From the IMG/VR virus record IMGVR_UViG_3300047678_000829, positions 1 to 37,680 of that record: a DNA stretch of 37,680 nucleotides. One strand, 5' to 3'. The notes below the pieces were generated by a model. That model did not search any database, was not told the DNA's origin, and worked only from the letters and a program-made list of their open reading frames with translations. Below are positions 4,551-9,062 of this stretch, piece after piece; position 1 is the stretch's first letter, and each line of letters opens with the position of its first letter. Source of the DNA: a virus. The position numbers were made by a program, and so were the translations under genes.

Positions 4551-5240
4551 TTATGCTTCCTTCTGTGCATCAGTAATGCTCAGAGGTAGAATCAATTTTG
4601 AGCCATCCTCGCCCTTGAATTCGCAGCGAACAAACTCTTTACTTCTTACAGGGCGGTAAGCATCCTGAATGATCTGAATTGCATCAATAAATGTCTTTAC
4701 TCCTGTCTCATCCGCCATTTGTTTCAGTTGGAGTACCCTGCTGGCTTTTAAAGTCCCTTTACTGTCCTTTGAAAGCAGTTTTAAAATGCCCTGAGAAAGT
4801 GCTTTTGATTCCCTGTCTTTGCCCAGGCCATTCAGGTAATCATAGATCTTTGCGATTCCTGTTTCTGCGGTGTCATCCCAACCATCGATCATATTGTGTC
4901 CGATAATTATGGTGATATCGCCATCGCTGGTTGTAAATGAATGGCTGTACTGATCGGTTTCCTTTTCGTACAATTCCGCTTTCGCCGCTACCAATGTTTC
5001 CATGTTCCGGTAAACTTTGGTTTTACATTGCGCCAATAATTCACTTGCCTTTCGCAGCATCGGGAATAATTCCCTTACAGTCTCATCAACTGTTGATTTG
5101 TACGTGGCCCTTTTTTTTCTTGTCAACGCCTTTTCAATGATCTGTTGCTCTTCCAATTCCTGCATCAGCTTCTTTTTCTGATCTGGTGTCAGTGCGCTGA
5201 TGTCAATTGGTGTGATTTTCTGTTCTGTTGTTGCAGTCAT
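4551..5240 (-). CDS. DUF3164 family protein
   Basis: 229 residues, ATG at 5240. It follows the DUF3164 pattern of Mu-like phages: VDETVRELFPMLRKASELLAQCKTKVYRNMETLVA; a beta region ending in TTSDGDITIIIGHNM; then a helical part (LNGLGKDRESKALSQGILKLL...LKASRVLQLKQMADET); and the RPVRSKEFVRCEF ending. The family occurs in the early regions of transposable phages next to MuA/MuB; its biochemical role is unknown. An N-terminal lysine-rich helix (residues 20-47) may bind nucleic acid. The start overlaps the upstream stop by 4 nt. Confidence 0.88.
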   Translation of the reverse strand: MTATTEQKITPIDISALTPDQKKKLMQELEEQQIIEKALTRKKRATYKSTVDETVRELFPMLRKASELLAQCKTKVYRNMETLVAAKAELYEKETDQYSHSFTTSDGDITIIIGHNMIDGWDDTAETGIAKIYDYLNGLGKDRESKALSQGILKLLSKDSKGTLKASRVLQLKQMADETGVKTFIDAIQIIQDAYRPVRSKEFVRCEFKGEDGSKLILPLSITDAQKEA

Positions 5241-5653
5241 AGTATTACTTTTTTGTCGTGAATGAGATTGAATAGATCCTGCTCCAGTATTTCACAGTGA
5301 AGCATGTATGTTTTGTATTGCGTGTATGAGATGGCCTGGTTGTAGACCTTATCGGTTATGTAGTTCCAGTCGTCCTGCATCCATTTTAGTTTCCACCAGG
5401 TCCAAAACCAGTTATGAGCGTTTCCCTCCTCAGCTGGAGACTTCAGGAGTACATTTTCGATTGTGTTCTGGATGTAAGGGAATAGCCTGGAGAAATGGAC
5501 AGCGAATCTTTGCCCATGCTCAAAGAGCATTTCCACCCATTCATTTTCAAACAGGTCCGTTTTTCTCAGGGTCCACCGGTGCGCCATCTTGAGTTCATCA
5601 ATACTGGTCATCGTCCGGGAGATACTTACAGATTCTTGGAGTAGATCTTGCAT
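5237..5653 (-). CDS. Hypothetical early protein
   Basis: 138 residues, ATG at 5653. Not recognised. Rich in Trp, Phe and His (NAHNWFWTWWKLKWMQDDWNY), all helical by eye, without a membrane-length hydrophobic run. It is the first protein gene after the 394-nt RNA-only stretch and overlaps the DUF3164 start by 4 nt (ATGA), so the two are likely translated together. Confidence 0.65.
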   Translation of the reverse strand: MQDLLQESVSISRTMTSIDELKMAHRWTLRKTDLFENEWVEMLFEHGQRFAVHFSRLFPYIQNTIENVLLKSPAEEGNAHNWFWTWWKLKWMQDDWNYITDKVYNQAISYTQYKTYMLHCEILEQDLFNLIHDKKVIL

Positions 5654-5683
5654 CGTATTTCGTTTTTGTGTTGACTTTAGAAA

Positions 5684-5704
5684 GCCTGTCTTTCCAGGCT
5701 GTCA
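5684..5704 (-). repeat. GAAAGA hairpin, copy 1
   Basis: Leftward strand: TGACA, then arm GCCTG, loop GAAAGA, arm CAGGC. Perfect 5-bp stem, plus an A-T closing pair outside. Same flank and loop as copies 2 and 3 but a different stem sequence. Lies just 3' of tRNA-like element 1 and 31 nt before the next protein gene. Confidence 0.75.
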
Positions 5705-5705
5705 T

Positions 5706-5721
5706 CAGGTGCCACCACCTG
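5706..5721 (-). other. Short perfect hairpin
   Basis: Arms CAGGTG and CACCTG with a GTGG loop, 1 nt upstream (in the leftward transcript) of GAAAGA hairpin copy 1. The two hairpins could stack. No T-run, so not a terminator. Confidence 0.5.
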
Positions 5722-5749
5722 CAGCGATTGTCTGCCCGTTTCAATTTGA

Positions 5750-5830
5750 GATCGGAGGAGGATTCGAACCTCCAGGCTACCAAAATGGTCCAGGTTTCCC
5801 CGGTGCAGCTACCTCGCCTGCCACCCGATC
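5750..5830 (-). tRNA. tRNA-like element 1, non-canonical anticodon arm
   Basis: 81 nt. Acceptor arms GATCGGG / TCCGATC pair over 7 bp (one G-U). The D-arm is GCAG-(GCGAGGTAG)-CTGC; the T-arm is GGAGG-(TTCGAAT)-CCTCC, a perfect tRNA T-arm. Where the anticodon arm should be, the sequence instead pairs CCGGG with CCTGG around a GAAA tetraloop, followed by a small ACC-ATTTT-GGT hairpin. No proper 7-nt loop with U33 is available, so no anticodon can be read. The 3' CCA is not encoded. Either a degenerate tRNA or an RNA that mimics a tRNA. Confidence 0.45.
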
Positions 5831-5834
5831 TACC

Positions 5835-5855
5835 ACCAGTCTTTCCTGGTTGTCA
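5835..5855 (-). repeat. GAAAGA hairpin, copy 2
   Basis: Leftward strand: TGACA, arm ACCAG, loop GAAAGA, arm CTGGT. Perfect 5-bp stem. Sits between the two tRNA-like elements, 4 nt before element 1. Confidence 0.75.
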
Positions 5856-5878
5856 TTATTCAACTAACCCAAAACAGT

Positions 5879-5962
5879 GGAGAGGGCAGGATTCGAACCT
5901 GCAATACCTTTCGGCCACTCACCCATAGCAGAGCTGCGTGTCCCACAGTTCGCCACCTCTCC
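5879..5962 (-). tRNA. tRNA-like element 2, class II (Ser/Leu-like)
   Basis: 84 nt plus discriminator A at 5878. Perfect 7-bp acceptor GGAGAGG / CCTCTCC, then TG, a D-arm of tRNA-Leu style (GCG ... CGC) and a perfect T-arm GCAGG-(TTCGAAT)-CCTGC. A long variable region with CC-GAAA-GG points to class II (Ser or Leu), and the acceptor resembles Bacteroidota tRNA-Ser. A loop CTGCTAT would give anticodon GCT (Ser), but its stem then has a G-G mismatch and shares a base with the D-stem. Best read as a diverged tRNA-Ser(GCT)-like gene; decoding ability is doubtful. CCA is not encoded. Confidence 0.5.
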
Positions 5963-6010
5963 GTTTCCCCGCCTGTAGAAACAGGAGAGGATTTTTTCCA
6001 ACAAAAGCCT

Positions 6011-6031
6011 GCCGGTCTTTCCCGACTGTCA
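6011..6031 (-). repeat. GAAAGA hairpin, copy 3
   Basis: Leftward strand: TGACA, arm GTCGG, loop GAAAGA, arm CCGGC. 5-bp stem with one G-U pair. Lies between the MuB-like gene stop (6048) and tRNA-like element 2. Copies 2 and 3 also share CAACTAAC shortly upstream. Confidence 0.75.
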
Positions 6032-6047
6032 ATCAAAACTCAACTAA

Positions 6048-6989
6048 CTAAAGACTTGAATTCTTTATGAGTTCACGCTTCACCAGGCGTTTCAGTCTTC
6101 GCTGATCAGTGATCACCCGGATAACAGATTCCCTCCCCCCGGTTTGTATCGCTTTACGTATTGGCGAGCATTGTTCAAATAGTTCTGAGATCACCTGGGC
6201 GTCACTTAAACCGTTAAGCTGGCAAATAGCGGTCGCATCCTTCAATGTGCATCCGATCAGGCGGATGTACCTACGACCAAATCTGCTGTCGATTTCGTCA
6301 TATCCTTTGACCTGGTATTTAACGCCCCTTTTGATTTCTTTCTCCAGGTTCTCCGTACCGGCAATGATCACTCCGAGCATATCTTCACATTCATTGTACA
6401 ATGAGATAAAAAACCTTAGTGCCGAGCCTTTCAATTTATCGCCTTCATCAACGATCAGGAGAGGTTTATACGGGCTGCGGGATTTAAAGAAGTCGATTAC
6501 CAACTGAATAAGTTGATTAGGTGTTTTAAAGCCACGACCGGCATCAATACCCAGGCACCGGCATAGGTTGTCCAGGAATTCTCGTTTCCCCCAATCCCAA
6601 CAGCGGATATAGAAAACATTTTGTTGCTGCAATTTGTCTGCGATATCTTTCAGAGGAGCGCTTTTGCCGATGCCTGCCAAATCACTGATCGGAAGAAAAA
6701 GGCTGTTATTTTTTGCATCAGCGATCACTTTAAAAATGCTTTTGTAATCACTTGTTTCAGCAATCTTCCATTCACCATTTTCAACAGCGGGCTTCCATCC
6801 GAGTTTTTGCCCAATCTTCAACCACATTTCATCCCCTTTTGTCTTATAGGTATTATCAACAATTTGTGAAACAGTCGCACTTGATATGCCCAAAAAATGA
6901 GATACTGCAGAGTAGCTGCCAAGTGCCGTTTTCTTTAATTCAATTAAGGATTGAATTGCCTTTTTGTCTGCGTTAGTTAGTTGTGACAT
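6048..6989 (-). CDS. MuB-like AAA+ target-site/transposition ATPase
   Basis: 313 residues. In Mu, MuB binds target DNA in an ATP-dependent filament and activates MuA. Here an N-terminal helix-turn-helix (about 22-46, SYSAVSHFLGISSATVSQIV) is followed by an AAA+ core: P-loop AGIGKS at 105-110, Walker B PLLIVDEGD at 176-184, sensor-1 VIIAGTEN at 207-214, and DEIDSRFGRR at 231-240, a likely box VII arginine region. The first glycine of the classical G-x4-GK[ST] is Asp103, as a variant P-loop. It starts 19 nt after the transposase stop. The order A then B matches transposable phages. Confidence 0.92.
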   Translation of the reverse strand: MSQLTNADKKAIQSLIELKKTALGSYSAVSHFLGISSATVSQIVDNTYKTKGDEMWLKIGQKLGWKPAVENGEWKIAETSDYKSIFKVIADAKNNSLFLPISDLAGIGKSAPLKDIADKLQQQNVFYIRCWDWGKREFLDNLCRCLGIDAGRGFKTPNQLIQLVIDFFKSRSPYKPLLIVDEGDKLKGSALRFFISLYNECEDMLGVIIAGTENLEKEIKRGVKYQVKGYDEIDSRFGRRYIRLIGCTLKDATAICQLNGLSDAQVISELFEQCSPIRKAIQTGGRESVIRVITDQRRLKRLVKRELIKNSSL

Positions 6990-7007: not shown

Positions 7008-9062
7008 TTAGTATTGGTCCCTGATATCATAACTATCAGGTCCGGAGTTTTCGTTGAATTGATTTACCAGGATAGCTGTCTCAGCCGTCTCGTATTCTCC
7101 CTTTGATATTTCGCCCTGCAGCAACACCGTTACTTCGCTACCAACTGCCATCTTCATTGATAGCTGTCTTTGTCTTTCGTCATTCAGGCTTCTGATTATC
7201 GCTTGTTGCTCATTGAACTTGCCCCACTGAGGATTCGGGCCATATATTTGAACACTTACTTCCTGTGCAGTGCCGAGATATTTTTTTAGAGGTCTGTCCG
7301 TAATCTCATATAGGTGAACCTGGGTAAGATCCTCCAGATCGTAACAGATGGTTACACGGTCATATTTGCTAACAACTTCAGGATCCTGGCAGCGAAAACT
7401 GAAAGGATAAGATTGGATGTCTATGTTGAGGAGACCTTCTCCGGTAAATTTGCGCTGAGTACGCAGGCCAAAGAGGTAAACTATCTGGTGGGTCTCCAGG
7501 GCGATAATATTGGGCTTTTCGCTGGCAATATGAAGTTCTGCAGGGGATTGCTCAACATAGCTGAATTTGCGGCTGTAATGGCTTAATTTAGTGCTTCTAT
7601 ATGCTTCTATTGTTTTACAGGCTTCATTTACTGCAGTGTCAAAATTCCAACCGTCCTTTTTCGCTTCCTGCCTCATCTTCTTTAACTGCTCTTTGCTGCG
7701 ATGTGCAAACTTATTTCGGCTTTGTATGCCTTCGCCATAGTAGTAATTGCTGGCTTGCATAAACACCTGCTGGTTGGTGCTGAACCATCTCTCCAGGGAC
7801 GCTTTGCCTGTTGCCTTGTGCATGAAAGTCACTTTTACGCCTCTGTTCTTCAAGTCGTCAAACAAAGCAGTCATCTCCTCGGTATTGTGACCAGGGAAAC
7901 GGTCCATTGACAATTGATATGGGAGATAACCGGTTTGCTCTACAGCCATCTTGAGAGCATTGTGTACCACCCACCGGTTTTCTGATATATCGAAAGAGTA
8001 ACCCAGGATATCACCAGAATGAACATCTCTCACTGCTACGATGTACAGGAATACATTTTTACCATTCAATTGGAAGTCTATAAAATTGACCCTTGTTCCA
8101 TCTACCTGCCAGCAGTCTCCGGCATGAAGTGCATTTTGGAATGGGATGTATCCTCGGTATTGCTGGCCATGCCTTCCCTTTTCACCGAATCGTTCAGGGC
8201 CAGTGAGCCAACGAGTATTATGCTGGCTAAGGAAATCTTGCATCCATCGATATGAGGGAATTCGTTTTTCTGTGACCTTACACATCCATTCAACTTTTCG
8301 GATGATGTGTGAATCCGTGTAGTTCCTTCCTTCCTTCCTAAGTTCCAAAAGCCAAGATTGTATTTCATCATCATTACAGTGAGCAGCGGCATTACTATTA
8401 CCGGCCCGGGGGAGTTTAATTTCTCCAGCAGCTTGCTGACTTGTTGTGAATCTTCCTCCATTAATAAGAGACTTGAGGTTTCTGTAATTCTTAGGGAGGT
8501 ACTTGAAATCGTTTGCCGAGATGAAACTCGAAATATCTTTGAAGAATCCGCTCTTTGACGTATCAATACCGAATTGCTCTTTGTAAAGTACCGCTGCCAT
8601 ACAAAGCGTGGCAGCTTTTGCGAGATTAACCTGTTGTGTTTTTGTGCAATCGGCATAGTATGGGAGTAAGGTGTGATAATGTTGCTCGATGTATTGATTA
8701 AAGAAAGTTTCAAGAGGAGTTACTTCTGTTGCCTGCAACTGCTTAGACATTTCGATCAGCTTCAAACGGCTAGGCAACTGACCCAGGTAGTTCGTTGGCT
8801 GTTTTTCAGGAATGTTGTCATACGCATAATAAAATTGACCGAATGCTTTTCCCCACCTCCAGGACTTCCTGGTATCAGGGAGGAAACTTTTATTCTTATG
8901 ACAAGGTTGAACAGTGCTTTTATAAACCGGCCTTGCTTTTCTATCGAGGTATGCTTTCGACAAACCTTCAAGATTCATCAAAAGGAATTGTTCACTAAGC
9001 CATACAGCAGGGACCTCGTTTTCTTGCCGGCGAACCAAAATGTCGTTAGGTTTTATTTGCAT
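7008..9062 (-). CDS. MuA-like DDE transposase
   Basis: 684 residues, close to the length of Mu transposase (663). The rve/RNase H-like core is clear: WQVDGTRVNF with Asp321, SMDRFPGHNT with Asp387 and KASLERWFSTNQ with Glu424, the DDE triad with 36 residues between the second Asp and Glu. Before it lie helical DNA-binding parts (about 100-310, including RKEGRNYTDSHIIRKVEWM and a helix pair near 268-285). After it comes a Mu-transposase C-terminal beta-barrel region (about 515-610) and a MuB-contact-like tail. It carries out strand transfer for integration and replicative transposition. The stop is 19 nt before MuB, so the two form one unit. Confidence 0.95.
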   Translation of the reverse strand: MQIKPNDILVRRQENEVPAVWLSEQFLLMNLEGLSKAYLDRKARPVYKSTVQPCHKNKSFLPDTRKSWRWGKAFGQFYYAYDNIPEKQPTNYLGQLPSRLKLIEMSKQLQATEVTPLETFFNQYIEQHYHTLLPYYADCTKTQQVNLAKAATLCMAAVLYKEQFGIDTSKSGFFKDISSFISANDFKYLPKNYRNLKSLINGGRFTTSQQAAGEIKLPRAGNSNAAAHCNDDEIQSWLLELRKEGRNYTDSHIIRKVEWMCKVTEKRIPSYRWMQDFLSQHNTRWLTGPERFGEKGRHGQQYRGYIPFQNALHAGDCWQVDGTRVNFIDFQLNGKNVFLYIVAVRDVHSGDILGYSFDISENRWVVHNALKMAVEQTGYLPYQLSMDRFPGHNTEEMTALFDDLKNRGVKVTFMHKATGKASLERWFSTNQQVFMQASNYYYGEGIQSRNKFAHRSKEQLKKMRQEAKKDGWNFDTAVNEACKTIEAYRSTKLSHYSRKFSYVEQSPAELHIASEKPNIIALETHQIVYLFGLRTQRKFTGEGLLNIDIQSYPFSFRCQDPEVVSKYDRVTICYDLEDLTQVHLYEITDRPLKKYLGTAQEVSVQIYGPNPQWGKFNEQQAIIRSLNDERQRQLSMKMAVGSEVTVLLQGEISKGEYETAETAILVNQFNENSGPDSYDIRDQY

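Follow-up and report, generated by a model that had tools for sequence, protein, structure and literature searches.

The window analysed here is an IMG/VR virus record of 37,680 bases. It carries genes for an rve-domain transposase and a MuB-like AAA ATPase, the latter with 25-39% identity to counterparts in Bacteroides, Porphyromonas and Winogradskyella phages, so the window is a Mu-like phage with a Bacteroidota host. The 394-nt stretch between the ATPase gene and the next open reading frame (ORF) is intergenic, in agreement with its initial annotation as non-coding, and folding of the whole stretch beats shuffles (z = -2.7). The region comprises:

7008-9062: rve-domain transposase
6048-6989, minus strand: MuB-like AAA ATPase (transposition), the gene upstream of the hairpin array
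6011-6031, minus strand: junction hairpin 1, TGACA-GTCG-GGAAAGAC-CGGC (TGACAGTCGGGAAAGACCGGC)
5878-5962, minus strand: tRNA-like RNA 1, with a long variable arm and a degenerate anticodon stem
5835-5855, minus strand: junction hairpin 2, TGACA-ACCA-GGAAAGAC-TGGT (TGACAACCAGGAAAGACTGGT)
5749-5831, minus strand: tRNA-like RNA 2, with acceptor, D and T arms in the predicted cloverleaf
5706-5721, minus strand: candidate helix P1 upstream of hairpin 3 (CAGGT/ACCTG), read from the sequence
5684-5704, minus strand: junction hairpin 3, TGACA-GCCT-GGAAAGAC-AGGC (TGACAGCCTGGAAAGACAGGC)
5237-5653, minus strand: downstream ORF with no assigned function, starting 31 nt past hairpin 3

The three hairpins, each with a TGACA flank, a GAAAGA loop and a paired stem of its own, are all present on the minus strand as first described. 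From 5' to 3', the leftward transcript reads hairpin 1, tRNA-like 1, hairpin 2, tRNA-like 2, hairpin 3, which reverses the order originally given. The pattern TGACA-N4-GGAAAGAC matches the window three times, at these hairpins, against 0.00 matches expected from 100 dinucleotide shuffles. The 5-bp stems all close with the same G-C pair, so that conservation extends beyond GAAAGA to the core GGAAAGAC. A single A lies between the candidate P1 of hairpin 3 and its TGACA.

Two tRNA-like RNAs had been proposed at the locus, and the evidence differs between them. tRNA-like 1 is called by ARAGORN as tRNA-Ser(GCT) at 5877-5962 and scores 35.2 bits in Rfam, as a weak tRNA. tRNA-like 2 folds into a cloverleaf but receives no call from ARAGORN or Rfam; in the folded cloverleaf its 'anticodon' arm is CCGGG-GAAA-CCUGG, a GAAA tetraloop without an anticodon. 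We therefore reject it as a canonical tRNA, the 7-nt anticodon loop being replaced by the tetraloop. Upstream of tRNA-like 1, CCTCTCC (5984-5990) is complementary to the acceptor 5' strand GGAGAGG (5956-5962), so that the precursor of this RNA could possibly fold in another way.

Single-sequence scans with MuA and MuB found no relatives in the viral contigs, and phages were therefore compared by the RNA pattern instead. The hairpin is not peculiar to the window phage: in the Bacteroides transposable phage BS-TP2 a stop codon is followed by the hairpin, a tRNA-like RNA and NinG. Carrier phages span hosts in Bacteroidota, Gammaproteobacteria and Bacillota, the last including the Bacillus phages 035JT001 and 055SW001, and in Vibrio PS10B.1 the hairpin lies upstream of tRNA-Tyr. 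The crAss-like phage cr272_1 (L350:1068-2405) has a long non-coding stretch with an Rfam RAGATH-1 hammerhead at its start and four hairpin-like elements, TGGCA and GGAATAGAC variants among them. Matches in a Halorubrum virus are unpaired and were taken as chance. In 781 bacterial genomes from two lineages there are 16 matches to the sequence pattern, of which only about four are paired, and this rarity indicates that the element belongs to phages and presumably prophages. As a control for chance, the pattern longer by one N, TGACA-N5-GGAAAGAC, gave five matches in genome contigs, all unpaired.

Covariation across many phages lends strong support to the initial view of a selected RNA structure. 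Searching 2.9 million viral contigs for TGACA-N5-GAAAGA downstream of a T arm, with no constraint on the stem, returned 92 contigs with 70 unique hairpins and 35 distinct stems. All five positions pair in 58 of the 70, and nine more pair with one bulge. The covariation score of the 35 distinct hairpins is 0.81; shuffles score 0.20 (sd 0.035) and slid partners no more than 0.18. All five stem pairs show compensatory, two-sided changes. The closing G-C pair is nearly invariant though the search pattern left it free.

The geometry is equally strict. Phage contigs hold at least 120 sites for the 5-bp stem pattern TGACAGCYYGGAAAGACRRGC and at least 120 for the 4-bp pattern, whereas the same scans gave no site for a 6-bp stem and no match when the loop or the flank was permuted in an otherwise identical pattern. 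In 151 of 183 hairpins an A directly follows the stem. The hairpin is thus a selected RNA element in which stem length, loop and flank are fixed.

A second helix, P1, can abut the flank. Among 290 hairpins, 42 have an upstream 5-mer complementary to the sequence abutting TGACA, compared with 7-18 at control offsets; for 6-mers the count is 28 against 4-11. P1 is detected in only a minority of hairpins. One RNA family has the form CTCGNN[N4]GAG ... T-arm-like hairpin ... [N4]TGACA. At 23 of its 25 loci the N4 in the loop and the N4 abutting TGACA, 65-86 nt further downstream, are perfect complements, and eight different 4-mers are represented. This places UGACA, in that family, between a long-range helix P1 and the hairpin P2. 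P1 next to UGACA is hence established by covariation in one family and, in general, as an excess over controls. The family has a pseudoknot-like P1, one or two T-arm-like hairpins and the junction hairpin at its end, and occurs at L006, L017, L023, L033, L034, L055, L064, L066, L080, L089 and other loci.

The initial annotation had offered cleavage sites for tRNA maturation as one role, which is too narrow; the hairpin may still serve in processing or bind a protein. In a context-free scan a T arm lies within 130 nt upstream in only 23 of the 109 unique hairpins among the matches listed, and many hairpins precede other structured RNAs or lie in early-operon leaders. The scan rules out an association with tRNAs alone. 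Hairpins avoid ORFs, lying wholly inside one in 74 of 258 cases where 184 are expected.

The hairpins usually lie just 5' of structured RNAs, the closing arm of which often begins 0-5 nt after the hairpin. In 61 of 258 cases the first 10 nt past the hairpin contain the start of a perfect 8-nt closing arm, compared with 17 at random and 15-16 at shifted sites; for more than half of the hairpins no downstream arm is detected. Counts of 7-mer arms peak at an offset of 4-5, which fits tRNA acceptor stems, while offsets of 0-3 fit other RNAs. Examples of such arms are ACTATCAAGTCATAACAG...CTGTTATGACTTGATAGT in L167, AACTTTAGAGAGTG...CACTCTACTAAAGTT in L192 and L211, and ACCACACGC...GTGTGGT in L197 and L208; L192 has four hairpins, each between different RNAs. 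In L024 (3615-3966) the hairpin lies inside the spacer of a phage tmRNA that ARAGORN calls as permuted (two-piece).

Recurrent small structured RNAs are observed directly 3' of hairpins in L192, L211, L167, L118, L164, L197 and L208. They have long closing arms (ACTATCA..., AACTTTAGAG..., ACCACACGC...) and gave no Rfam match where scanned.

Early leaders of temperate phages sometimes carry the hairpin, and several hairpins in early leaders or before ATG codons have no obvious structured RNA adjoining. The leader after the HTH regulator of Stenotrophomonas phage BUCT708 holds three, and in Pectobacterium phage ZF40 and Aeromonas phage pAEv1818 the hairpin lies in the leader adjoining the repressor gene. 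These three phages have it just downstream of early promoters; most hairpins are located elsewhere. A conserved early leader of about 65 nt (AGGCAGGACGCCCACGAAGTAGCCG...) adjoins repressor genes in L338, L339, L340, L337 and L226 and is found in enterobacterial and Aeromonas temperate phages with the hairpin present or absent. SPN3UB and mEp237, which have the leader core in common, were rejected as carriers because on reading the sequence the hairpin is absent.

The element also appears in single-stranded RNA phages. The genome of Esthiorhiza.2_44 (Fiersviridae) ends in ACTCATTTGAGT-TGACA-GC(T)CG-GAAAGA-CGGCT, and at the corresponding position its relative Gerhypos.1_32 carries CCCTTAAGTGGG-AGACA-GT(T)CG-GATAGA-CGACT. 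In both (L351 and L352) the element lies in the 3' UTR, and P1 and P2 are kept through compensatory changes: P1 is altered on both sides, and a C-G pair of P2 is replaced by U-A. The first match alone has E = 10 and the sample is two related genomes; the case is made by P1, the compensatory changes and a bulge variant also known from tRNA arrays. Compensatory changes in two related RNA phages argue that the element acts at the RNA level. If these carriers are right, the element cannot function solely in DNA or solely through the host RNA polymerase.

The hairpin was compared with known phage RNA elements. Lambda boxB has a stem of about 5 bp and a purine, GNRA-like pentaloop, GAAAA. The junction hairpin resembles it in stem length, A-rich GNRA-like loop and flanking A, but differs in its hexaloop GAAAGA, its obligatory UGACA flank and the lack of any tie to an N gene. 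A lambda-type nut site is not apparent, as there is no boxA and the 20 nt upstream of TGACA contain no conserved positions. An intrinsic terminator is rejected because no U tract follows the stem, the next base being mostly A, and the stem is strictly 4-5 bp.

The put antiterminator RNAs of phage HK022 are, like the junction hairpin, cis-acting phage RNAs of adjacent helices (PMC9378689), and some hairpins occupy the putL position in early leaders. The junction hairpin differs in being multi-copy, beside non-coding RNAs, and present in phages of many phyla and in ssRNA phages. Identity with put is rejected, since the 9-kb HK022 immunity region contains no GGAAAGAC and the putL and putR loops differ.

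Theta ribozymes are HDV-like and lie next to gut phage tRNAs (PMC10879173). Both they and the hairpin are short cis elements beside phage tRNAs that may define tRNA ends, but where the junction hairpin has a tRNA beside it, some 25-55 nt separate it from the T arm, and most copies have no tRNA nearby. A single hairpin of 4-5 bp with an optional P1 has no nested double pseudoknot, and assignment to this class was rejected. GOLLD and ROOL are likewise structured phage RNAs near tRNA islands, of 500-800 nt (PMC12286853), whereas the junction hairpin is a 19-21-nt module separating many different RNAs; neither Rfam model matched in the loci tested.

Rfam 15 gave no match covering the hairpin at the gathering threshold or at E values up to 0.5-1, for which 21 nt may be too short. 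We found no earlier description in the full-text literature searched, which lies mostly outside subscription journals, so that a prior report is possible. The junction hairpin (UGACA, a 4-5-bp stem and a GAAAGA loop) is apparently an undescribed RNA family. Its core GGAAAGAC is identical to 23S rRNA around A2058, which may be coincidence.

Our tentative reading, favoured but at less than even confidence, is that the hairpin serves as a recognition module by which structured RNAs are marked and separated within phage transcripts. Phages would set this cis-acting module at the boundaries of structured non-coding RNAs, in the order helix P1, UGACA, P2 (4-5 bp, closing a GAAAGA loop with G-C) and then A. 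Recognition may be due to a conserved factor that occurs widely in bacteria or to the compact fold of P1 and P2, and the module would separate or insulate the adjoining RNA from the remainder of a polycistronic transcript. In the window, this would allow maturation of the two tRNA-like RNAs or keep them separate from the mRNA on the MuB side and from the downstream mRNA. An ssRNA phage cut in its 3' UTR would lose the end of its genome, and simple cutting therefore cannot explain every case. Stated more broadly, and again at less than even confidence, a factor common to bacteria, or a new functional fold, may recognize a 19-21-nt boundary element across DNA and RNA phages of many phyla, and the element may mark, separate or protect structured RNAs, including anticodon-less tRNA-like arrays.

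An alternative that we consider unlikely is antitermination of the HK022 put kind, in which the nascent hairpin would bind host RNA polymerase, as put RNA does at the beta' zinc-binding domain, and allow read-through of terminators and of long untranslated stretches. RNA polymerase is conserved across hosts; in ZF40, pAEv1818 and BUCT708 the hairpin ends or punctuates the untranslated leader between repressor and early operon, the putL/nutL position, and elsewhere it is found enriched in arrays of untranslated RNA. In L111, L130, L136, L142, L173 and L196 the hairpin has a terminator-like stem about 20 nt downstream. Leader positions and these few terminator-proximal cases lend the put-like reading genuine support. 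Overall, however, terminator-like sites lie at 0-120 nt for 9 of 138 hairpins and at 120-240 nt for 5, which is no clear enrichment and leaves a general coupling to downstream terminators unsupported. The difference from putL and putR, the occurrence of part of the leader without the hairpin in SPN3UB and mEp237, and the two ssRNA phages, which host RNA polymerase does not transcribe, also weigh against this explanation.

Binding of a phage-encoded protein, in the manner of boxB and N or for autoregulation, would account for the 5-bp stem, the purine GNRA-like loop and the strictness of stem length, loop and flank. This seems distinctly unlikely given that the PHROGs of neighbouring genes are heterogeneous, with no single recurring protein family, that the element spans phages of Bacteroidota, Gammaproteobacteria and Bacillota as well as ssRNA phages with very few genes, and that no conserved boxA-like motif lies upstream.

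We are similarly doubtful of a stability element that would involve no cleavage and protect phage RNA ends against exonucleases or against a defence nuclease. The position 3' of tRNA-like RNAs and in the ssRNA phage 3' UTR is consistent with it, as is the restriction to phages, but the hairpin also occurs in 5' leaders, and its short, sometimes A-T-rich stem would by itself be a weak barrier.

That P1-UGACA-P2 forms part of a new small self-cleaving ribozyme is less plausible still. The small invariant core with variable helices would suit one, the positions beside tRNAs resemble those of theta ribozymes (PMC10879173), and the array of cr272_1 opens with a hammerhead. Outside one family, however, no invariant nucleotides surround the 5' strand of P1, the hairpins match no Rfam ribozyme model, and a self-cleaving motif would harm an ssRNA phage genome. 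An attC-like recombination site exchanging RNA gene cassettes between phages at the DNA level, as the cassette-like arrays, in which similar linkers join different tRNA-like bodies, might suggest, is highly improbable because the hairpin covaries in ssRNA phages, always has the orientation of the RNA and shows no attC core boxes.

A covarying element under strict conservation, common to dsDNA phages of several phyla and to ssRNA phages, points to a common bacterial target, exploited or avoided. That target could be sought simply with a 21-nt probe, for which loop and flank mutants make clean controls. The pattern also offers a way to locate the many structured RNAs and tRNA-like arrays that phage genomes contain without annotation.

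The leader of the E. coli K-12 Rac prophage (L343:3606-3703) contains the KilS sRNA and lacks the hairpin. It includes TTGCTGTGTGTAGTC, a sequence that the leaders of L136, L137, L142 and L346 also have between their hairpins.

In L036 (983-3290) and about 25 other contigs, tRNA-like RNAs that share constant ends (AGTCAGGTGGCGGAATTGGTAGACGC ... ACAGGTTCGAATCCTGTCCTGACT) form arrays. Their 43 distinct units have a variable middle of about 40-120 nt in place of the anticodon arm, and the arrays often sit just upstream of ORFs.
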